DNA of 64,000 nucleotides from a virus: positions 20,981 through 84,980 of IMG/VR virus record IMGVR_UViG_3300032235_001020. One strand, given 5' to 3'. The stretch's first letter is position 1; the number at the start of each line of letters is the position of its first letter. The notes beneath the pieces were generated by a model that saw only the letters and a program-made list of their open reading frames with translations, was not told the DNA's origin and made no database searches. A program made the translations under genes and the position numbers. Below, in pieces: positions 46,080 through 63,225 of this stretch.

Positions 46080-47624
46080 ATGGCAGGCGTATCGATTGCC
46101 CTGGCGCGCAAACGCAGTGCGCTCAAGGCGGCTCAAAGCATCAAGAAGCAGCCAGAGGTGGTCGTCGAGGAGCCCGTTCTTCCTCCGCATGTCCTGAAGG
46201 CACGGGAGAACTTCGGGTACTTCTGCGAACTGATGGGCAAACCGCCAGCCCGGCACATGAAGGAATGGCATAGCGCCTTCTTGACCGGGCAAAGCAATGA
46301 GCACCTGCTGGACATCGCGGGCCCGAACACCTGCCTGCTCAGCCCCAGAGGCAGTGCCAAAAGCACGGTACTGGGTCTGCTACTGGGCTGGCTGATCGGC
46401 AGGCACGCGCTAGCCAAGAAGCTGCTGCGCATCCTGTATGTCTCGTACAACGTGGACGTTGCGCGCAACAAGAGCGCAGCCATCAAGAACCTGATCCTCT
46501 CCAAGACTTACCAGGAGATCTTCCCGTGCGTGCGGCTCTCCAAGACCAGGACCTCGGACGAGCTGTGGGGCATTGACTGGGATTTCGCCGACATCGACGT
46601 TCGAGGGGAAGACGCCTTCACGGTCGCCTGCGCTGGTCTAAAGGGAACGATCACCTCCAAGCGGAGCTCCCTGATCGTCGTGGATGACGCGATCAAGAGT
46701 GCGGCATCGATCGCCAACCCGGACATCCGCCGGGAGATGGAGAACAACTGGAACGCGGTGATCGTGCCGACCATGTTCCAGGGTGCGCGGGCCATCGCCT
46801 TGGGAACGAGATTCCACTTCGACGACCTGTTCTCGACCATCTACACCGAGAAGAAGGGGTGGAAGACCGTTGTTCAGTCGGCGCTGCGCTACGACGAGGA
46901 CGGCCGGCCGAAGTCCTACTGGCCCGAGATGTGGTCCACCAAGTACCTGCTCAAGCTGCAGAGTGACGATCGGATCTCGTTCTCGTACCAGTACCTGAAC
47001 CAGCCGGTGCGTTCCACGGAGCTGGGCGTCAGTCCAGAGCTGTTCGTCCGCGGCGAGGTGCCGGACACCTATGACATGGTCGGGGTGGGCATTGACCTCT
47101 CTGCGGGGATGAGCGAGCGGAACGACTGGACCGTGTTCACGCTGGCTGGCCGGGTCGACGACAAGTGCTACATCATCGATTACAGGCGCATGCGCTCGAT
47201 GGGCAACATCGAGAAGGTCGAAGCCCTGTGCGAGCTGCTGATGGAGTGGAACCTGCTGGCGGTCAACGACAATGGCCAGTACTTCCCAACAGCCTCAGCG
47301 GTCACGATCTGGCCTGAGGTCGTGGCCTATCAGAAGAGTTTCGAGGGGGACCTCAAGCGGGTGCTGTTCAACGAATGGCAGCTCTACAACCTGCACATCT
47401 CGCCTGTGAAGGGGTTCCGCGGCGACAAGCTTGCTCGGCTGCGCGGCATTCTCGGTCTGTTCCAGGCCAAGAAGATCATCTTCAACAAATACCGCGATTT
47501 CAGCTACATGATCGATGAGATCACGAACTTCGGTCATAGCCCCCATGACGACTGCGCTGACAGCCTCAACATCGTGGTGCAGGGGCTGATGAAGCGCGGA
47601 GCTGCGCAAATCGAATGGACCTAA
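46080..47624 (+). CDS. terL: Terminase large subunit
   Basis: 514 aa packaging motor. Walker A variant LLSPRGSAKST at 86-96, Walker B LIVVDD at 198-203, then LGTRFHFDDLFSTIY near 241-255. The nuclease half begins VGVGIDLSAG with Asp339 and ends with SPHDDCADSL near 487-496. It cuts and pumps DNA through the portal. The start is 7 nt after a TAGATT that may be fortuitous; portal follows at 10 nt. Confidence 0.93.
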   Translation: MAGVSIALARKRSALKAAQSIKKQPEVVVEEPVLPPHVLKARENFGYFCELMGKPPARHMKEWHSAFLTGQSNEHLLDIAGPNTCLLSPRGSAKSTVLGLLLGWLIGRHALAKKLLRILYVSYNVDVARNKSAAIKNLILSKTYQEIFPCVRLSKTRTSDELWGIDWDFADIDVRGEDAFTVACAGLKGTITSKRSSLIVVDDAIKSAASIANPDIRREMENNWNAVIVPTMFQGARAIALGTRFHFDDLFSTIYTEKKGWKTVVQSALRYDEDGRPKSYWPEMWSTKYLLKLQSDDRISFSYQYLNQPVRSTELGVSPELFVRGEVPDTYDMVGVGIDLSAGMSERNDWTVFTLAGRVDDKCYIIDYRRMRSMGNIEKVEALCELLMEWNLLAVNDNGQYFPTASAVTIWPEVVAYQKSFEGDLKRVLFNEWQLYNLHISPVKGFRGDKLARLRGILGLFQAKKIIFNKYRDFSYMIDEITNFGHSPHDDCADSLNIVVQGLMKRGAAQIEWT

Positions 47625-47633
47625 ACTAGACCC

Positions 47634-49853
47634 ATGAGCCAACCCAAAACCGAGCGTTTTCGCCGCATTCTGGAGGCCGCGCGCAAGCGTGACGGCACGG
47701 CTGGGGTCGACACGATGGTGGTCAACTCGCATCTCTCGCAGATGCGGTTGTTCATGCTGCGGGCCGGTTTGGAGTTCTACCCCGCGCAGGACACCTTCGG
47801 CTTTCGCAAGAGCTTCCTCGCGGCGCTGATACAAGAGAACGAGATCGACGCCCGACTCGAGGGCATCATCGACGACTTCCTGCTGGATGGGAAGGGTCTG
47901 TGGTACTTCCGTCCGGTGGGCGACAGCTACCGGCTGATGTGGTTCAGCAAGGAAAACTACCGCGCGTACTACGACGCAGCCGGCCAGCTGGAAGAGGTCG
48001 AGCTGATCTACAGCTTCACGGTGCGTGACGGGCTGGGGGCGATGGTTGCCATGGCCGGCGGCGATGGCGGGTCCCTGCGCTACGTGAAGCTCCAGGTTCG
48101 GCGCGACACCATCAAGGAGTCGATCACGACCGAGAAGCCGAGTTTTGACGCAGCCATTACGACGCTGACCTATGCGCCCAACTCGACGCGCACCCTGAGC
48201 AACAGTCTGGGCTTCATCCCCGCTGTCGAGTCATTCAACAACATGCGCTCGACTGGCATGGACGCCAGCGGCGAGTTTGATTGGCTGAGCGATCACATCG
48301 TCACGCACGACGATCTGATCAAGAACATCCGCGCCAACATCACCTTCTACGGCAACCCCACGCTGGTCTCGAGTCGTCCCAAGCAGGACCTGATCGAGTC
48401 TGGCGATGGAGAGGAGTTCCGCCCGACTATCAGCTCGCAGGCCGGCTTCTATGCGGCGAATCGCCCCTCGACGCGCCTGAGTTCCCCGATGGGAGCTGGC
48501 GGTGGCGGCGGCGTCAAGGTCCCGCGGATCATCGCCAACATTGAGGCCACGGACCGCGTGGCGTACATCACGCCCGATGCGGTGTCTGGCGACCAGAACC
48601 TCTACGCCCGCCAGTACCGCGAGGAGCTGCGCAATGCCATGGGCGGCGTCGACGAGCTTGGTATCAGCTCTGGCGCTACGGCGTACGAAGTCAAGTCCCT
48701 CTATGGCCGGGCGGCGACAACGGCATCGAGGAAGTGCCGGGGCCTGCTCACCTACGGGCTGTGCAAATTGCTCTCGCTCGTCCTGTTCAACGAAGAGAAG
48801 ATCTTCCGGGAGTCCTTCGCCGCTGCCGTCGGCCTGGAAGCACCACCGGTCCCCCTGCGGGAAGAGTTCCCCGATCCGCAGCAATACCAGGAAGCCGTTG
48901 CTGGATTCCGCGATACCTATAAGCAGTTCGAGGAAGCCCTAGAAGCCCAGATCAGGGACGCGGTGCAGGCCCGGGAATTGCCACCAGGTGTCGTTGGTTT
49001 GATCCCCGATGGCGATCGCAAGATTGATTGGCGTTGGCTGGGTCCCGTTTTCGAGGACTCCACAGAAGATATACTGAACTCAAGCATTGTTGTGCGAAAC
49101 CTGCAGGAGCTCGGTGTCAACAGCATCGAGGCCCTCAGGTACCTCTTCCCGGATAAAACCGACGAAGAACGCAGTGCAATGCTCAGTGGCTATCCATTCC
49201 GAATGGCTCAAGCCACGCAGCAAAGCATTGGAACCTTCCTGTCGCTGATTCAAAACATGCGACAGACCCCGCACCCGCAGGCTCCGGATCTCCCCCTGCT
49301 AGCGGACCCCAAGCTCGATCTGACGCCCTACGTCTATCGAGCTCTCGAATTCCTTAAGAGAGAACTGACCTATGCAGGACAGTACAGCGATGGCGACGGC
49401 AGTGGCGACCCCACAGCCCTCGATCCCATCCAGCGTGGCCGCGCCGACCGTGGCCTCCCCATCGATCCAGCAAGCGGCCCCAGCTTCATACCCGACGGCG
49501 CAACCGCAGGTTCCGGCTTACGCCCCGGAAGCTCCGGTTTCAGTGCCTCAGGCGAACCCCTGGCAGGCGGCGTACCAGGGGCTGCTCGCCAGCTTGAGCG
49601 CGACGCCTCAATCCCAGTCCCAGGGGTACTACTCAGCTCCGACCCAACAGGAGGCCCCTACCCCGGCGACCTACTTGCAGGCACCGGTGAGCTACCAGGC
49701 GGCTCCCTCCGTTACGGCGCCGCTGACCTCAGCGTTCCCACAAACGGCGGCCTATTCCCAGGCGATTCCGGCACAGGCTCCGAGCTACAACAGCGCGCCG
49801 AGCGCAGCCGCGAGCGACGAGTATCTGCAAAGCGTCAGCAGCGAAAGTCTTGA
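47634..49853 (+). CDS. Portal protein with long disordered C-terminal tail
   Basis: 739 aa. The head-tail portal ring protein: helical start (SHLSQMRLFMLRAGLEFYPA), IIDDFLLDGKGLWYFRPVGD, FIPAVESFNNMRST, EELRNAMGGVDELGISSGAT, then a long helical stem-crown region to about residue 580. The last 160 residues are Gly/Pro/Ser-rich with a basic end (ERSRERRVSAKRQQRKS) and are read from the same DNA as the start of the scaffold-like gene. Confidence 0.88.
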   Translation: MSQPKTERFRRILEAARKRDGTAGVDTMVVNSHLSQMRLFMLRAGLEFYPAQDTFGFRKSFLAALIQENEIDARLEGIIDDFLLDGKGLWYFRPVGDSYRLMWFSKENYRAYYDAAGQLEEVELIYSFTVRDGLGAMVAMAGGDGGSLRYVKLQVRRDTIKESITTEKPSFDAAITTLTYAPNSTRTLSNSLGFIPAVESFNNMRSTGMDASGEFDWLSDHIVTHDDLIKNIRANITFYGNPTLVSSRPKQDLIESGDGEEFRPTISSQAGFYAANRPSTRLSSPMGAGGGGGVKVPRIIANIEATDRVAYITPDAVSGDQNLYARQYREELRNAMGGVDELGISSGATAYEVKSLYGRAATTASRKCRGLLTYGLCKLLSLVLFNEEKIFRESFAAAVGLEAPPVPLREEFPDPQQYQEAVAGFRDTYKQFEEALEAQIRDAVQARELPPGVVGLIPDGDRKIDWRWLGPVFEDSTEDILNSSIVVRNLQELGVNSIEALRYLFPDKTDEERSAMLSGYPFRMAQATQQSIGTFLSLIQNMRQTPHPQAPDLPLLADPKLDLTPYVYRALEFLKRELTYAGQYSDGDGSGDPTALDPIQRGRADRGLPIDPASGPSFIPDGATAGSGLRPGSSGFSASGEPLAGGVPGAARQLERDASIPVPGVLLSSDPTGGPYPGDLLAGTGELPGGSLRYGAADLSVPTNGGLFPGDSGTGSELQQRAERSRERRVSAKRQQRKS

Positions 49854-50370
49854 GGTTCTCCAGCATTTCGGTGCTGAGGCCCCTGCCCTGCTGAACCGCT
49901 ATGCCTGCGTGGTCGAGGACGCGCTGCTGAGCCAGGCCCGGCAGACCGCCGAGGCCCTGAGCCAACTGCAGACCATCCACGGTCAACTGCAGAACTCGCA
50001 CACTGTGATCGAGGCTGCGGCTGAGGACAATGCGGCTTATCACACGCTGCTGACCAACCCCGAGATCCTCGCTGAGTACGTCAACGAGTTCTTCGGTCCC
50101 CAGGGTCCCTATCCCACCGAGCTGCCCCAGGATCGCCTGGCTGCTGAAGTCGCCGCCAACGAGCGTCGCTTCGCCCCCGCCCCTGCGACCTATCAGCGCC
50201 CTCAGATGGAGATGCCCGCTCCTGACGTGCAAGCCAGCAATGGCGGCGGTGACGACTTCTGGGCCACCTTCTCTGCCCTGAGCGAGCGCAACCCTGCGGC
50301 CGCCTGGCAGATGCTGAGCCAAGCCACCCCTGAGGCTCTGCGCAGCAAGGTGCTGGTTTCCGAAGGCTGA
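49372..50370 (+). CDS. Scaffold-like head-assembly protein overlapping the portal gene
   Basis: 332 aa in the +1 frame relative to the portal; the first 482 nt are shared. Residues 1-140 are Pro/Gln/Ala/Ser-rich and unstructured; from about 145 come helices (SLEVLQHFGAEAPALLNRYA, AEALSQLQTIHGQLQNSHTV), then a Pro-rich stretch and a helical end. Position between portal and capsid plus composition suggest scaffolding. AAGAGAG lies about 13 nt before ATG 49372. Confidence 0.68.
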   Translation: MQDSTAMATAVATPQPSIPSSVAAPTVASPSIQQAAPASYPTAQPQVPAYAPEAPVSVPQANPWQAAYQGLLASLSATPQSQSQGYYSAPTQQEAPTPATYLQAPVSYQAAPSVTAPLTSAFPQTAAYSQAIPAQAPSYNSAPSAAASDEYLQSVSSESLEVLQHFGAEAPALLNRYACVVEDALLSQARQTAEALSQLQTIHGQLQNSHTVIEAAAEDNAAYHTLLTNPEILAEYVNEFFGPQGPYPTELPQDRLAAEVAANERRFAPAPATYQRPQMEMPAPDVQASNGGGDDFWATFSALSERNPAAAWQMLSQATPEALRSKVLVSEG

Positions 50371-50711: not shown

Positions 50712-51035
50712 ATGCGTTTAGCGGGTAGCCCTGAGCTGTTTGATGCCCTGGTTCGGCAATACGCCGGCCGGGGCATTCCTCGTGGGGCATCTCAGCACCT
50801 GGCGGCAGAGACGGTGACCGGCGGGGATTCAGTTGAGACCCGGCTGGATGCGTTCTTCGGGCTGTATGAACTCCTGCAGTCCAAGGGCTACAGCGAATCA
50901 GCAGCACAGCACCTGGCTGTCGAAATGATGGAAGGGCGCGAGCCCATGGCGCAGTCAACGCTTCGCTACGCAGGAGTTTATGGCGATTCACCCGCAGACG
51001 CTGGGATTGGCGACTCGGCTGATCGAGGAATTTGA
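50712..51035 (+). CDS. Unknown protein ahead of the endolysin
   Basis: 107 aa, RLAGSPELFDALVRQYAGRG, LDAFFGLYELLQSKGYSESA, QHLAVEMMEGREPMAQ. No hydrophobic helix, so not a holin. The last 18 residues overlap the endolysin start (56 nt). Confidence 0.6.
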   Translation: MRLAGSPELFDALVRQYAGRGIPRGASQHLAAETVTGGDSVETRLDAFFGLYELLQSKGYSESAAQHLAVEMMEGREPMAQSTLRYAGVYGDSPADAGIGDSADRGI

Positions 51036-52146
51036 AGGGATTGAACTCGAGGCCTATCTCGATCCCGTCGGCATTCCAACGATCTGCGCTGGTCTGACCC
51101 GTTATCCGAACGGGGAACCCGTGCGCATGGGCGACCAGTGCGACCACAGGATCTGCAAGGCGCACCTCCAGGAACTACTGAAATCACAGTTCGTGCCTGC
51201 GATGGAGTGCATTCCTGGCTGGGATCGACTGGGCCCACAGCGACAGTCTGTCTTGCTGAGCTTTGCCTGGAACCTGGGCGCCATGTTCTACGGCAGTGCA
51301 GGATTTGAATCGATCACGCGTGTACTGCGGGAAGGCGCAGTGAAGGCCGAGCAATACAGACAGATGCCTCAGGCTCTTAGCCTTTATGTCAAGGCAGGGG
51401 GTAGAACACTGCCAGGACTGGTTAATCGCCGCCACCGCGAAGGTGAGATCTGGCAACGAGAGGATGACGGCACCATGAAGTTCATCGCACAGCAGGACAC
51501 CCTGCTCAAGAAGGCGCCGATCGACGGCCATTACTTGTCGGAAGCAGGCAAGAAGCCAGTCAGCAAAGGCGAATTGCTGGCAGTCAGCAAGCTGGACGAG
51601 ATTCCAGGCGACAGTCATGCATGGGTGACACTGCATGGATCTGGCGAACGGTGGGTGCTGTTCACGCCGCACTGGCTCGAGGAGCGTGCCAAGCCAGCGC
51701 CAGCCCCCTCTAGTGCGATCAACTGGAGCGACTTTGCCTGCCCAGTGGGCAAGTACGTCACGGTCGGCGAGGTCCTGCAGTACGACGCTCGCCGGGCGCC
51801 TAAGGCCGGCAGTGCCGAGGAGAAGGCCATCATCGAGGTCTGCCGGCAGTTCGATGCGATCCGCACGGCATGGGCCGGTCCACTGGGCATCACCAGCGGC
51901 TACCGCCCAGAGCCGATCAATAGCCAGGTGGGCGGGGTGCCGGGCAGCTACCACGTCAAGGGCATGGCCTTGGACATCTATCCCATTGGCGAATCACTGC
52001 AGAAGTTCCACGAATGGCTGGTGCAGCGATGGAGCGGCGGTTACGGCGACGGGCGTCCGCGCGGATTCATTCACATCGATACTCGCAATGGAGGCAAGTT
52101 CACTGCACGTGCTGGAGTAAAGCCATCTGCAATTTGGGATTACTGA
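50980..52146 (+). CDS. Bifunctional endolysin: GH24 lysozyme plus M15-type peptidase
   Basis: 388 aa. Residues 10-155 are a T4-type lysozyme: FEG at 18-20 with the likely catalytic Glu19, Asp28 and Thr34 (EAYLDPVGIPT), then the helical core (LLSFAWNLGAMFYGSAGF). Residues 170-235 resemble an SH3-like linker. Residues 245-388 match M15_3 peptidases: SGYRP 306-310, YHVKGMALDI with His325 and Asp332, GFIHIDTR with His365. It would cut both the glycan and the peptide of peptidoglycan. No holin lies next to it. Confidence 0.88.
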   Translation: MAIHPQTLGLATRLIEEFEGIELEAYLDPVGIPTICAGLTRYPNGEPVRMGDQCDHRICKAHLQELLKSQFVPAMECIPGWDRLGPQRQSVLLSFAWNLGAMFYGSAGFESITRVLREGAVKAEQYRQMPQALSLYVKAGGRTLPGLVNRRHREGEIWQREDDGTMKFIAQQDTLLKKAPIDGHYLSEAGKKPVSKGELLAVSKLDEIPGDSHAWVTLHGSGERWVLFTPHWLEERAKPAPAPSSAINWSDFACPVGKYVTVGEVLQYDARRAPKAGSAEEKAIIEVCRQFDAIRTAWAGPLGITSGYRPEPINSQVGGVPGSYHVKGMALDIYPIGESLQKFHEWLVQRWSGGYGDGRPRGFIHIDTRNGGKFTARAGVKPSAIWDY

Positions 52147-54438: not shown

Positions 54439-54999
54439 CTAACGCCTCAGAGTTGGCAGCTTGCAGCGGGGAATGAGCTGCCTGAGGTCCTGAATGAGGT
54501 CATCTGCGTAGATGCCCTGAAACTCGAGGCGGCCTTTCTGCACCAATGACGGCAGGTAGCCAAGGCCCCGCACCCACTCCTGCAGATGCTGCGTTTCCTC
54601 GAGGTTGGCCCAGGAGCGTAAGACGACCTTGCGGCGCGAGGCGGTACCGGTGTCACACCACAAAGCAGCAAGACCCTGCATGCCGACGATCTGGAGGATC
54701 TCAGGCGTCAGGCGGCGCTCGTCTCTGAAGAAGAGCAGGTCATAGACGCGATACAGGTCAGGGCTATGGACGCGAATGCGCCGGTCGTCGTAGAAGCCAT
54801 CGGCCTGGATGATGTCCGAGACCGCCTCGAGCTTGCCGTCATGCGCCTTGTGGAGCATGCGCAGTTGGTGGTTCAAGTACGTCAGGTCGGTCTCCCGGCG
54901 CTTGATCTCGAGCCACGGCCGCTTCTTCACCCCCTTCAGGCCAATCGTCCCGCGTCCCAAGCAGTAACTCAGTGCGAGCGCTACGAATGAGGCTGACAT
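54439..54999 (-). CDS. LAGLIDADG-type domain, second half of a split homing endonuclease
   Basis: 186 aa from ATG 54999. ALALSYCLGRGTIGL occupies the place of the LAGLIDADG helix, with Arg instead of the usual catalytic Asp; YRVYDLLFFRDERRLTPEIL and LAALWCDTGTASRRK match the LAGLIDADG_2 middle and end. The catalytic acid is missing, so this domain is probably inactive or structural. Confidence 0.6.
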   Translation of the reverse strand: MSASFVALALSYCLGRGTIGLKGVKKRPWLEIKRRETDLTYLNHQLRMLHKAHDGKLEAVSDIIQADGFYDDRRIRVHSPDLYRVYDLLFFRDERRLTPEILQIVGMQGLAALWCDTGTASRRKVVLRSWANLEETQHLQEWVRGLGYLPSLVQKGRLEFQGIYADDLIQDLRQLIPRCKLPTLRR

Positions 55000-55609
55000 C
55001 CCAGACTTCCTCTTTGAATAGGTGAATGCGACTCGCCGGTGCGTAGGGCAGTAGGGCCTTGCGGATCTTGCTGGCCTCTCGCTTCTGAAAACGCAGGCGA
55101 GGCTGGATGTGGGTATCGGCCAGGGTTGCCTCGGCGCCGGTCAAGACGCCAATCCACTGGCAGACCCGCAGAGCCTCATCGAAGGATTTGCCGACCCGCG
55201 CCAGGTCGACATAGCCCTCTAGATGGGGGCGGGCCCCCTCAGCCCAGAGCCAGGCAGCAGCTTGAGCGCCGAGCATGTCGAGCGCGGTCTGGCTGATCTC
55301 ACGCTCGCCAGTTGGGTAGAGCAGGTTGTAGACAGGGCGAAGGCGGGTCGATGAAACCCGGAAGCGCAGCACCGACGTGCTCTTGCCGTTGGCGCGTGGC
55401 TTGGTTTTGTAGTGAACAATCTGCGCCTGTGTCGGCACAAATTGACGGAATTCGGCGACCTTCTCCTCGAGAAACGCGGACTCCGCTGCGCCGGCTGTCA
55501 GCGTGAGCTGGATATATCCCCCTCCAGGACTGCGATATGGCACCAGGCTGCCATCGGCGAGTAGCAAACTGAGCAGACCCCGGACGTCTGTGGCGTCCAA
55601 CTTTTTCAC
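54839..55609 (-). CDS. LAGLIDADG-type domain, first half of a split homing endonuclease
   Basis: 256 aa from GTG 55609; ATG 55687 would run into the capsid start region. GLLSLLLADGSLV keeps an Asp at the LAGLIDADG position; VYNLLYPTGEREISQTALDM and GAQAAAWLWAEGA match LAGLIDADG_2. The final 50 residues overlap the next frame and look like frameshifted sequence. With 54439 it reads as one two-domain enzyme split by a frame change; free-standing, no intron seen. Confidence 0.65.
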   Translation of the reverse strand: MKKLDATDVRGLLSLLLADGSLVPYRSPGGGYIQLTLTAGAAESAFLEEKVAEFRQFVPTQAQIVHYKTKPRANGKSTSVLRFRVSSTRLRPVYNLLYPTGEREISQTALDMLGAQAAAWLWAEGARPHLEGYVDLARVGKSFDEALRVCQWIGVLTGAEATLADTHIQPRLRFQKREASKIRKALLPYAPASRIHLFKEEVWDVSLIRSARTELLLGTRDDWPEGGEEAAVARDQAPGDRPDVLEPPTAHAPQGA

Positions 55610-55624
55610 ACTACGAGACTGTTT

Positions 55625-55630
55625 TATAGT
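55625..55630 (+). promoter_or_regulatory. TATAGT -10 box of the capsid gene
   Basis: TATAGT with TTTTTC 17 nt upstream, 27 nt before GTG 55652; AGGAGG at about 55638-55643 gives the start a strong ribosome site. Confidence 0.55.
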
Positions 55631-55651
55631 AAGCCCCAGGAGGCGCCTTGC

Positions 55652-56833
55652 GTGCCTTCTCGCACACTTGTCGCTCGGACATTTCATCCCATGTGGATTG
55701 ACAATGACTTTCCGAAGCTGCTAGGTGCCGAGCTTTATCGACCCCATCCCTCGTACATCGTGGAGATGGCGGTCGAGCCCGTGGTTGTGCACGACTTCGC
55801 CAAGCAACCCGGCCAGACTGTTCAGCTTGATCGCTACCGCTTCTGGGGTGCCCCTGGCACTAAGGACAGCCGTGAGCGCACTGCTGATCAGACTCTCGGC
55901 ACTGCATCTTCGCGCTCGATCGTGAAGGATAAGGTGCTGGTGAACCTCAAGGAGTACACCGGCCCCGCTGATCCGACCGATACTTCCGCCCCCTCCACCT
56001 TCAAGGTGGCCCGGGAAACCCTGCTGACTGCCCAGCGCCTGCTGCTGGACACCGGCAACCTGAATGTTTTCCACCAGTCGATCGGTTCGCTGACCCTGCT
56101 GGATGACTATCGCCGCTGGCGCGACCGCGTCTTCGCCGACGAGCTGTTCAAAGCCGAAGCCAACGGTCTGGCTGACAGCACCAAGGGTGGTTACTTCTAC
56201 CCCCTGAAGAAGGCCAAGGCAGCTTCTGCTCCCTTCCTGAGCTACACGGCTGGCGAGTCCGCCAAGTTCGATGTCAAGACCGACCTCCTCGAGGTCGTGA
56301 AGGACATGCGCAAGCGGAACGTCCCCACCTTCGCTGACGGTTACTACCGTTGCATCGCGGATCCCACCGCAATGATGCACCTGCGCCAGAACGACGCGTT
56401 CCGTGAGATCGCTCGTTACGCAGGCAACGGCATGGTCAACCCCATGCAGCCCGAACTGGCCCCCAACGCCAGCTTCTTCCGTGGCATGGGCCCCGCCTAT
56501 GGCCAGGCCGGCTTCGTCGCAGGTCAGCCTGTGATGCCCTCGGGCTTCCTCTTTGAGGGCGTCCGCTGGTTCGAGTCGACCAACCTTCCCGAGAAGTCAC
56601 TGCAAGTGACCATCGCCGACGCGTCGATCACCTCGACCGTCACCACTGCTGCCCCCATGCTGTTCTTCGGCCCTCAGGCCGTGGGCGTGGGCATCGGCGG
56701 CAACAACGCTCAGATCCTGCTGAATAACAACGACGATTTCAGTCGTTTTATCATCATGATTTGGTCGCTCTTCGCCGGTTTCGAGATCCTGAACAAGGAC
56801 TTCGTGACCGTGGCCTACTCGTTCGTGTACTGA
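55652..56833 (+). CDS. Major capsid protein, N4 gp56-like
   Basis: 393 aa. GTG 55652 has AGGAGG 9 nt upstream, favouring it over ATG 55691. PKLLGAELYRPHPSYIVEMA, the E-loop-like TLGTASSRSIVKDKVLVNLK, then VVKDMRKRNVPTFADGYYRC and IADPTAMMHLRQNDAFREIA are typical of the N4-gp56 HK97-fold family. It builds the capsid lattice. Codon use is strongly biased to C-ending codons, as expected for the most abundant protein. Confidence 0.88.
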   Translation: MPSRTLVARTFHPMWIDNDFPKLLGAELYRPHPSYIVEMAVEPVVVHDFAKQPGQTVQLDRYRFWGAPGTKDSRERTADQTLGTASSRSIVKDKVLVNLKEYTGPADPTDTSAPSTFKVARETLLTAQRLLLDTGNLNVFHQSIGSLTLLDDYRRWRDRVFADELFKAEANGLADSTKGGYFYPLKKAKAASAPFLSYTAGESAKFDVKTDLLEVVKDMRKRNVPTFADGYYRCIADPTAMMHLRQNDAFREIARYAGNGMVNPMQPELAPNASFFRGMGPAYGQAGFVAGQPVMPSGFLFEGVRWFESTNLPEKSLQVTIADASITSTVTTAAPMLFFGPQAVGVGIGGNNAQILLNNNDDFSRFIIMIWSLFAGFEILNKDFVTVAYSFVY

Positions 56834-59836: not shown

Positions 59837-60355
59837 ATGAACAGCCGTCATCCACAAGGTCGCTTCAATACCGGCGAAGTCCGCGGTGAGACCCCGCAAG
59901 AGGGGCGCTGGTACAAGGACCGGGCTATGGAGCGTGAGATTAGCCGTGATTTCACTGCAGCATCAGGCATGGTGCCCACGAACCCGAGCAACTTCTATGC
60001 CGCCAAAGCAAAGCCGTCGGAGTTTCGGTATGACGCGATCGCAGATGGCCTGACCTCCTATGTCAGCCCCTATGGCGATGGTCGTCAGTTTCTGCGCCAG
60101 GAAGAGCCCACTCTGACGACACCGGGTCCTGCCGCCAACATGGTCGCAGCCGCAGACCCAGCCAAGGGAGCCGCTGATCAGTCGCGCACCCCGGGCTATG
60201 GCTTTGGGGCGGGCAGTCGCTTGGCCCAGATTGATGGGGCCATGCAGCAGAACCCTGCCGCGCCGATGGCTGCAGAGTCGGCGCCAACTCTGGGAATGTC
60301 GACAGGTATTTCCCTGGGCAGTGGGCCTAAGCGAAATGTACCAAAGCCGGCCTAA
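59837..60355 (+). CDS. Unknown 172-aa virion-cluster protein
   Basis: RHPQGRFNTGEVRGETPQEG, FYAAKAKPSEFRYDAIADGL, then a Pro/Ala-rich low-complexity end. No domain recognised. 3 nt after the previous gene. Confidence 0.6.
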   Translation: MNSRHPQGRFNTGEVRGETPQEGRWYKDRAMEREISRDFTAASGMVPTNPSNFYAAKAKPSEFRYDAIADGLTSYVSPYGDGRQFLRQEEPTLTTPGPAANMVAAADPAKGAADQSRTPGYGFGAGSRLAQIDGAMQQNPAAPMAAESAPTLGMSTGISLGSGPKRNVPKPA

Positions 60356-60415: not shown

Positions 60416-60955
60416 TTGGCAACGAGCTCAAGCAACAAGATGCCCTTGCTGGTCGATCGACCGTTGCATTCCTTTGCGACGATCGGCGGCACAACGGCAC
60501 TGACGAGTGCGACGAATTTCAATACCCCCAATGGGGCCGGATGCGCCCTGCTGGTGGATTGCAGTTCCAATGACGGCGCTGTCATTGATTCGCTATCAGT
60601 GCTGGTCACGGAAGCGTCCACGACGACCAGCACTGTCCTGGTCTTCTTGAGCACGGCCTCATCGACCGCAACGATCTCAGCGTTGAACACTGCACTTGTG
60701 GCTAGCGTTGCGATCCCGGGCAGTAACACCGCCGGCCAACGGGTCAACATTTCCCTGCCTGCATTGTCGGTCCCGATGCCGAACCTTGCGTCGCCGGCAG
60801 CGACCATGGCCACCTATCCAACCGAGACGGATAAGAAGAATACGGGTCTGTATGTGCCCTCAACTGCGTTGGTATACGTGGGTGTGAATACTGCGCTGAC
60901 GGCACCCAGTGCAGCCACGCGCGTGCATGTGTTTGCGCAAGGCGGCTTCTTCTGA
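60416..60955 (+). CDS. Beta-rich structural protein
   Basis: 179 aa from TTG 60416 (GGTAGAGA adjacent) or ATG 60440. Thr/Ser/Ala-rich strands: HSFATIGGTTALTSATNFNT, TSTVLVFLSTASSTATISAL, YVGVNTALTAPSAATRVHVF. Resembles decoration or tail-tube-like proteins in composition; no family. Confidence 0.62.
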   Translation: MATSSSNKMPLLVDRPLHSFATIGGTTALTSATNFNTPNGAGCALLVDCSSNDGAVIDSLSVLVTEASTTTSTVLVFLSTASSTATISALNTALVASVAIPGSNTAGQRVNISLPALSVPMPNLASPAATMATYPTETDKKNTGLYVPSTALVYVGVNTALTAPSAATRVHVFAQGGFF

Positions 60956-60964
60956 TTCAAGATC

Positions 60965-61816
60965 ATGCCCAACAACAACAGGCAAGAGCAGAAAGCGCGT
61001 GACAAGGCACGCGAACTACTCCAGGAGGTTGGGAACAATCTCAGCGTCAGAGAAGCTGAACGCATCGAGCGGAAGACTGGCGTTGATATTGATCGGATCA
61101 CCAGGATCGCTGACCGGCAGGACATTAACGTCCCTCAGCGCGTCGAGAATAGAGTCGATAACATCGTTCAACAGCGGCAGGGCGGCAGCACTAGTCCTCC
61201 GCCCCCCAGCAACACCAACGTCAGTAATACCAACGCCAACCCGGGGCAAGACGCCTATTCGCAAATCTATGCGACCCTGGCTGAGCAATACAGAACACAA
61301 GCAGAGAGCTACAAGACAGAGGCTGCGCAATACAAGGCAGAGGCTCAGGGTTACGAGTCAAAGCTTTCAGACTATGACTCGACATTTACAAGCCTTAAGA
61401 ATCAATACAGCAACGCTCTTGCACAACAGCAGAGTGCCAATGCCCAGGCCGCCTCAGAGAAGAAGCGCGCTGACGAGCTTGAGAAGCAACGCAAAGACGA
61501 AGAGGAACTCGAAGTCGCACGGCAAGTCAGCAGCTTGCGGAGTGGCTCGACCGTCTCAGGCAGTGTCGGTGCCGGGATGGGCAGCCTGTCGTCGGGAGGT
61601 ACCAGCCGGTCTATTTCGACGGGCGCCAGAAATGGCGGCATCCTGGACCGGGCCTATCAGGACATCGATCCAACCGACAGTGTCTTAAATCGCGACGTCG
61701 CGACCGGCGCATCCAGGGAGATGCGGAGCAGTGGGGGCTCAAGAGCGCAGGCTCGCCAGCGCGCGCTGAGCAGCGGGACAACGGCAGGTCAGTATTACGC
61801 ACGTCGGTTTGGGTGA
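60965..61816 (+). CDS. Coiled-coil virion protein, 283 aa
   Basis: Basic helical start (QEQKARDKARELLQEVGNNL), Pro/Asn linker (about 78-95), a long coiled coil 100-180 with repeats (AEQYRTQAESYKTEAAQYKA), then a Gly/Ser-rich end. Rod-like structural role likely. TGATG overlap with the next gene. Confidence 0.65.
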   Translation: MPNNNRQEQKARDKARELLQEVGNNLSVREAERIERKTGVDIDRITRIADRQDINVPQRVENRVDNIVQQRQGGSTSPPPPSNTNVSNTNANPGQDAYSQIYATLAEQYRTQAESYKTEAAQYKAEAQGYESKLSDYDSTFTSLKNQYSNALAQQQSANAQAASEKKRADELEKQRKDEEELEVARQVSSLRSGSTVSGSVGAGMGSLSSGGTSRSISTGARNGGILDRAYQDIDPTDSVLNRDVATGASREMRSSGGSRAQARQRALSSGTTAGQYYARRFG

Positions 61817-63225
61817 TGCCGCGCCAGTTCGGCGACAAGCTGAATCGAGGCATGAAGCTGGCGCCGGTTGCGCGTCCAGCCAAGAGACGGGCTGACGGGA
61901 TCTACCCATCCAAGGGCGCTGGACTCGGGGAGTACGGCAGCACGGTCTACCCAACGGTGATCGAGGCGTACAACCGCGAGAGCGACTACAGGCGCTGGCG
62001 CCTCGGCCAGGAGTATTTCTTTGGGACGGGCCGCAGCTGGGGGGACTACCAGATCTACAGCCTGGCGCGCTTTGTGACTGGCGCTGTGGATGGCACGTCG
62101 AAGGAGATCACGACCCTGTTCCCAAGTGCGACATCACCCGAGAGCGCCTGGTACGCGAGCTGCCGGACCCGAGGATCGATCATCCTGCCGCAGCCCATCA
62201 CGGCAGCTCGGGTCACGACCAACACCAGTGGCGACGACCCCAGCACGCACACCCTGACGTTGAATGTCAGCGGCATCCTGAGCGCAGCGCAGCTCGCGGT
62301 ATTCAATATCTTCATTGGCGATCAATTCGAGGACTCGGCCAGCGGGCCTAGTTATCCCGGGAACTTGGTTGAACGCGATGCCGGCAGCGTGGCGCTGACG
62401 CTGACAGCAGTGAATGTGGCCGGACTGACCCTGACGTTCGACCTGTCACGCCCTGCGGGGAGGGTGCAGCGCAATGGCCGGGTGTACTGGGACAACCTGC
62501 CCTACAACCCGAGTGCCCCGACAGTTTGGAAGACGGACGGGACGCGGCATCTGTGCTCGTCCTTCAAGTTCTTCTGCTGCTGCCCAGATCACCTGGGTGG
62601 GGCGCTGGCCAACTTGGAGAAGCCAGAGAGGGGTCAGCGGCGAGATCGATTCCCGCTACCGAACGCAGCTCGGGACGTGAATTCGCCCTGGGAGCGACAG
62701 GGCGCTGGCTACTACCGTCAGTGGCGCACGCTGCCTCGTCGGCGCGATGAGCGCAGGGAGTGCAAGCACATTCACTCGCTGCGCTGGCAGTGCGGAGTCC
62801 CCTGGCTGGAGCCGGATGACTATCCCGTCGGCGACGAGCGCATCATCTTGGAGTTCCAGGCCGACGCCGAGCGCCAGTACTCCAGCGAGGAAATCATGGA
62901 GTACTTCCGGTTGCGTCAGCTGAACTGGGACCGCTTTGCGATGACGGTGGCGGACGTGGTGGGCATCATCCTGTTCCCCGGGGGCGACCCAAGGGATGCG
63001 ATTCGCCCTGACGCCAGGCCGCTGTTGTGGAATGACGCGGAAGAGCCGCTGGACATTTGGTGCCGTCAGAACGATTGGTGGCTAGAGCGCGGCACCCAGA
63101 CCCTGCGCATCTTCAATGCCGGTACGCAGAACTTTGACAGCACCGTGACCGTAGGTGGCAATGCGTTTCCGGTATTGGACTTTGTTGATCCTGGCAGCCC
63201 TGGTGCACCAGTAATTGTGCCGTAG
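61816..63225 (+). CDS. Tail-module structural protein, 469 aa
   Basis: ATG 61816. ESDYRRWRLGQEYFFGTGRS, a beta-rich domain (TLTLNVSGILSAAQLAVFNI, NLVERDAGSVALTLTAVNVA), a Cys cluster FKFFCCCPDHLGG, later CKHIHSLRWQCGVPW and EIMEYFRLRQLNW. The clustered cysteines and histidines could bind metal. No family named; place before the tail fibre suggests a tail adaptor. Confidence 0.65.
   Translation: MPRQFGDKLNRGMKLAPVARPAKRRADGIYPSKGAGLGEYGSTVYPTVIEAYNRESDYRRWRLGQEYFFGTGRSWGDYQIYSLARFVTGAVDGTSKEITTLFPSATSPESAWYASCRTRGSIILPQPITAARVTTNTSGDDPSTHTLTLNVSGILSAAQLAVFNIFIGDQFEDSASGPSYPGNLVERDAGSVALTLTAVNVAGLTLTFDLSRPAGRVQRNGRVYWDNLPYNPSAPTVWKTDGTRHLCSSFKFFCCCPDHLGGALANLEKPERGQRRDRFPLPNAARDVNSPWERQGAGYYRQWRTLPRRRDERRECKHIHSLRWQCGVPWLEPDDYPVGDERIILEFQADAERQYSSEEIMEYFRLRQLNWDRFAMTVADVVGIILFPGGDPRDAIRPDARPLLWNDAEEPLDIWCRQNDWWLERGTQTLRIFNAGTQNFDSTVTVGGNAFPVLDFVDPGSPGAPVIVP

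Follow-up and report, generated by a model that had tools for sequence, protein, structure and literature searches.

A 482-nt stretch of DNA from a tailed phage is very probably a genuine and long-conserved out-of-frame gene overlap, in which the second frame would be entered by internal initiation and would most likely encode a scaffolding protein. The stretch lies in the window (the 64,000 nt of DNA analyzed here), which belongs to an 84,980-base virus record (IMGVR_UViG_3300032235_001020). In the model that we favor, the stretch would be translated in two ways. Ribosomes that have come through the portal gene would produce from it the C-terminal tail of the portal protein, which is mostly disordered and closes with a basic segment. 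A second set of ribosomes would start within the portal message itself, at a site 482 nt ahead of the portal stop codon, and would translate the same nucleotides in the +1 frame. Their product would be a helical, acidic protein, most likely the scaffold, and the stretch would encode its N-terminal half, which is mostly disordered.

The portal gene, the downstream gene and their shared segment

The earlier note, made from the letters of the window alone, had described an overlap of 482 nt between a portal gene and a scaffold-like gene in another frame. Both open reading frames (ORFs) and the shared segment at 49372–49853 are present as described, and the downstream gene is in the +1 frame relative to the portal gene. 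The relevant features are listed below; S-EIV1 is a cultured Synechococcus phage, and the GTG-start clade is a further group of relatives.

46080–47624, + strand: terminase large subunit gene (context; PHROG_38, E 1.5e-69)
47634–49853, + strand: portal protein gene, 739 aa (core, residues 1–578; overlapping tail, residues 580–739)
49356–49362, + strand: weak Shine-Dalgarno-like AAGAGAG (the S-EIV1 and GTG-start clades have a strong AAGGAG at approximately this position)
49366–49368, + strand: in-frame stop codon just 5′ of the downstream start, barring an earlier start of the downstream frame
49372–49374, + strand: start codon of the downstream gene (a start codon in 81 of the 81 representatives aligned there, from 82 in total)
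49372–49853, + strand: predicted dual-coding overlap of the portal frame and the +1 frame, 482 nt
49372–50370, + strand: downstream scaffold-like gene, 332 aa
49558–49599, + strand: conserved, predicted NPWQ helix, downstream residues 63–76, inside the overlap
49800–49850, + strand: basic C-terminal segment of the portal protein
49852–50370, + strand: C-terminal part of the downstream protein, acidic and predicted to be helical (long helix at residues 170–228), outside the overlap
55652–56833, + strand: major capsid protein gene (context; PHROG_1357, E 7e-20; 68% identity to S-EIV1)

The first gene matched PHROG_20475 (E 3e-185), and its sole relative in the annotated phage collection was the S-EIV1 protein (48% identity). 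The gene directly follows that of the large terminase, which ends at 47624; the portal gene starts at 47634. An AlphaFold model built on 58 sequences was of moderate confidence (pTM 0.52) and resembled solved phage portals (VIA-align Z 14.5 over 245 residues, rmsd 3.6, within residues 4–475; Foldseek E 1e-9). The identification of the first gene as a portal gene is thereby supported, for the core of the protein, by its predicted fold. The tail (residues 580–739) lies beyond the portal fold and was modeled mostly at low confidence, with almost no structure. Low complexity of both products in the shared segment, together with a basic portal end, had also been proposed, and this matched the residue percentages in the window (G 19%, S 12% and P 11% in the portal tail; A 23%, S 16%, P 15% and Q 13% in the N-terminal part of the downstream protein) and the C-terminal sequence of the window portal, ...RSRERRVSAKRQQRKS.

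The scaffold-like label of the second gene drew support from gene order and from the helical, acidic build of the protein, and none from a family, sequence or solved-structure match: searches of PHROGs, Pfam and NCBIfam returned no meaningful family for the downstream protein, and no match was obtained among solved structures (PDB). The sole significant viral-structure match was A0A0C4K645, a protein of 133 aa, which is the length of the truncated product annotated in S-EIV1. The model of the downstream protein was weak overall (mean pLDDT 59). Residues 1–61 and 77–148 had low pLDDT, with one conserved helix (63–76, NPWQ...) between them, and the C-terminal part consisted of a long helix (170–228) and further helices; the window protein is acidic (net −19). 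An elongated, helical, charged and partly disordered protein is a common build, and such a model is weak evidence for a scaffold. The usual position of a scaffold gene is between the portal and major capsid genes. The downstream gene of S-EIV1 occupies this position, with the capsid homologue approximately 600 nt downstream and one short gene between. The order portal, downstream gene, capsid is kept in the window, but the last two are separated by 5.3 kb of other genes, among them a lysozyme/M15-peptidase gene and two LAGLIDADG-like genes. Considering gene order and helical build, we regard the downstream protein as probably scaffold-like.

Two of the loci between the scaffold-like and capsid genes of the window can be described further. 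The ORF at 50980–52146 encodes an endolysin-like protein with a phage lysozyme domain and an M15 peptidase domain. Just upstream of the major capsid gene, two adjacent minus-strand ORFs (54439–55687) gave weak, below-cut-off matches to LAGLIDADG_2 and had no match in the S-EIV1 stretch compared.

Conservation of the overlap and selection on the two frames

In the window alone, the +1 frame was stop-free in 24% of redraws from the portal gene's own synonymous codon usage, in 1.6% of cases when the synonymous codons of the stretch were permuted, and in 0.01% when codon order was permuted. Taken by itself, the open +1 frame of the window is only mildly surprising. Such single-sequence shuffles are too weak to decide, and therefore relatives were used. 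The highest of these values would suit an arrangement with coding confined to the portal frame, a downstream gene that begins beyond the portal stop, and a +1 frame that is open as a side effect of Gly/Pro-rich, GC-rich codons; S-EIV1 is annotated in this manner in GenBank. Redraws from the relatives S-EIV1, L047, L139 and L144, however, left the downstream frame open in only 0.3–7% of cases, and the frame is open in all four.

Relatives were fetched with the window's portal core and with three portal alignments, each of which contributed its 80 best hits out of 592, 584 and 578 confirmed relatives, respectively; one contig was added from the GTDB collection. Among the relatives sampled, the +1 overlap was present in 207 of the 208 portal genes that were readable to the stop codon, a count that leaves aside 12 more loci running off their contig. 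Across these 207 genes, the overlap measured 443–635 nt and the +1 ORF started at the same portal site within one codon. Early portal stops or frameshifts in relatives, which the earlier note had named as evidence against its reading, were thus absent from 207 of the 208 readable genes. The overlap was kept down to 48% portal identity, the cultured phage S-EIV1 included. The first 198 loci yielded 175 distinct overlap sequences, and the start codon was ATG in 164 of these loci and GTG in 34. The third frame was open through the overlap in only one of 82 non-redundant sequences. Judged from these sequences, a +1 overlap of such persistence is far beyond chance.

The sole exception was L074, where a 56-nt deletion within the overlap disrupts both frames. 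This locus otherwise matches L071 and L072 over the compared piece, and may reflect either an assembly error or a rare mutant. Apart from the broken L074, no relative without the overlap was found among those sampled. One contig filed under a Euryarchaeota MAG (L145, PAJN01000013.1) carries the portal/scaffold-like pair with a 485-nt overlap, and is probably a viral contig that was assigned to the wrong bin.

Silent change was assessed as the same-codon fraction, counted at residues conserved between two sequences, with amino-acid matching to the portion of that gene outside the overlap. Among the 82 representatives, the fraction in the overlap was 0.668 observed versus 0.353 expected in the portal frame, and 0.624 versus 0.418 in the downstream frame. 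The corresponding values for 50 representatives of the S-EIV1 clade, which were fetched separately, were 0.850 versus 0.496 and 0.753 versus 0.540. Along the portal gene, the ratio of observed to expected was approximately 1 (0.89 to 1.18) before the overlap and approximately 2 from codon 580; along the downstream gene, it ranged from 1.15 to 1.73 as far as codon 160 and was approximately 1 thereafter. The step in constraint therefore sits on both ORF boundaries. Synonymous-site constraint in both frames across relatives, which had been suggested as a check on the overlap, was accordingly found, with silent change dropping sharply and exactly at both boundaries. Portal codons 501–540 (window positions ~49134–49253), which are outside the overlap, showed a slight excess of silent-site conservation (ratio 1.15–1.18).

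In close pairs, portal third-position differences dropped from 0.316 to 0.055 in the overlap. A locally low mutation rate was excluded, because no such drop occurred at second positions (0.020 to 0.031), and identity at the amino-acid level was lower in the overlap than outside it. Third positions of the downstream gene, which are first positions of the portal gene, differed at 0.29 in the overlap versus 0.49 in the non-overlapping part of that gene. A cross-frame null was then calculated for divergent pairs, in which one protein was kept, its synonymous codons were redrawn, and the identity of the other frame was predicted. Portal frame identity was 0.363, versus 0.164 predicted from downstream constraint alone, and downstream frame identity was 0.375, versus 0.154 predicted from portal constraint alone, with zero stops in each; the third (+2) frame contained 2,197 stops in the same comparison. 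Identity in the third frame was also above its null (0.315 versus 0.167), which is expected wherever other causes conserve the bases, and the frame-specific argument therefore rests on the stop counts and the position pattern. These comparisons indicate that the conservation of each frame exceeds what the protein in the other frame would impose, and that both frames are under purifying selection.

Portal-only coding is difficult to reconcile with the strong reduction of portal-frame silent change, which is confined to the overlap, with downstream frame identity more than twice that expected from portal constraint, and with the conserved NPWQ helix, which lies in the downstream frame within the overlap. 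We consider that arrangement highly improbable. The converse, in which the downstream frame alone is coding and the portal tail is a readthrough product with no function, would account for a tail that is disordered and beyond the portal fold, and for the S-EIV1 clade, where the downstream frame is somewhat better conserved than the portal frame (0.760 versus 0.688). It is nevertheless very unlikely: the portal frame is stop-free and exceeds the identity expected from downstream constraint alone, the basic portal end and an ER...LPxPG motif in the tail are conserved, and the change at downstream third positions is reduced, as described above. We give almost no credence to the view that the silent-site constraint reflects an RNA structure or packaging signal instead of dual coding. 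Constraint raised over the whole stretch would fit such a signal, but folding energy was ordinary (z 0.31 in the window, −1.24 in S-EIV1), no Rfam match was obtained, and the constraint starts and ends at ORF boundaries, with stops absent from the +1 frame and present in the +2 frame.

Under the dual-coding reading, the overlap is probably tolerated because both overlapping parts are disordered, low-complexity tails (the models are of low confidence in most of both), so that neither fold would be constrained. Conservation of the two frames along the stretch was positively correlated (Spearman 0.53), and part of this correlation is automatic because the frames share bases. A separation of constraint, with motifs of one frame lying in the gaps of the other, was tested for along the stretch and was not seen. 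The portal frame fitted genome codon usage better in 46 of 74 cases, and codon usage thus did not tell which frame is older. It seems unlikely to us that the basic portal tail and the disordered N-terminal half of the scaffold, with its NPWQ helix, are a pair that binds to start head assembly at the portal vertex. If they were such a pair, the shared DNA would keep the partners co-inherited and changing together, and recombination could not separate them.

Translation start of the downstream gene

In 74 loci, an in-frame stop was located 6 to 51 nt 5′ of the downstream start, mostly at 6 or 9 nt, and therefore little or no room is left for an earlier start. No other start codon in the overlap was conserved across the group (82 representatives), and the internal start itself is fixed. 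The sequence AAGGAG was found at the right distance before the start in 80 of 80 S-EIV1-clade and 27 of 29 GTG-clade sequences. Both triplets are minority codons in these clades: AAG accounts for 36% of Lys codons in the S-EIV1 clade and 45% in the GTG-start clade, and GAG for 33% and 37% of Glu codons, respectively. Their use to spell AAGGAG suggests selection for a ribosome-binding site that is encoded by the codons of the portal gene. A strong Shine-Dalgarno sequence is thus present in two of three clades, whereas the clade of the window has the weak AAGAGAG. Coupling by termination and reinitiation (stop-start) was excluded, as the downstream start precedes the portal stop by 482 nt. The earlier note had suggested that the overlap could couple the amounts of portal and scaffold; such dosage coupling gained no support from the analysis, and in two clades the downstream start has a strong ribosome-binding site of its own.

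Overlaps of this kind permit fusions in principle, and programmed ribosomal frameshifting could join the two frames into a portal–scaffold fusion. The fixed start codon and the AAGGAG of two clades point instead to separate initiation, and we regard a fusion as a most improbable outcome. Independent internal initiation inside the portal message, by which both products would be made, appears to be the best reading.

Comparison with known overlaps and the annotation of S-EIV1

The lambda C/Nu3 and herpesvirus UL26/UL26.5 gene pairs are in-frame nested scaffolds, in which an internal start inside a head gene gives rise to a scaffold-type protein. The pair described here is similar in having an internal start within a head gene, with a likely scaffold as the product, but it uses two different frames, the gene that harbors the start encodes the portal, and the overlap is only partial. 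An in-frame nested scaffold of the lambda C/Nu3 type was ruled out, since the downstream gene is in the +1 frame in all readable relatives but L074. The lysis genes Rz/Rz1 of lambda are, like the present pair, an out-of-frame overlap in a tailed dsDNA phage; Rz1, however, is a small, nested lipoprotein gene, whereas here two head genes overlap over 443–635 nt. To our knowledge, much work has been done on long out-of-frame overlaps in small viruses, but few have been documented between head genes in large tailed phages, whose genomes are under no obvious pressure to be compressed. With its 175 distinct sequences, the overlap offers a natural case in which to study the evolution of two proteins that share the same DNA, and a means of testing how portal and scaffold come together.

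Passages of a review on overprinted viral genes (PMC8227390) describe reduced silent substitution and enrichment in disordered protein. Our case is alike in that two proteins would be encoded by one DNA stretch in different frames, with less silent substitution and with disorder. The systematic data in those passages concern small eukaryotic viruses, whereas the overlap reported here belongs to an 85-kb tailed-phage record and involves a portal and a likely scaffold. No report of an out-of-frame portal/scaffold overlap was found among open-licence papers, including passages of PMC8227390 and PMC5723332.

Within a widespread cyanophage group, the overlap is fixed among the members sampled, and it is cut off in the only annotated relative. 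S-EIV1 (KJ410740) carries the same overlap, of 554 nt, with an ATG start preceded by AAAGGAG. In its GenBank record, the downstream gene is annotated from 59863, after the portal stop at 59840, with 134 codons including the stop; the annotation thus drops the first ~191 codons. Common gene callers cap same-strand overlaps, and similar overlaps may therefore be missed elsewhere. The major capsid homologue of S-EIV1 (L226:3860-5011; KJ410740.1 ~60859-62010), which has a GTG start and 68% identity to the window protein, is likewise not one annotated gene. A minus-strand hypothetical ORF (AHV82227) is annotated over its first part, and its C-terminal part is a separate hypothetical protein (AHV82228); in the window major capsid protein, homology to S-EIV1 starts at residue 14.
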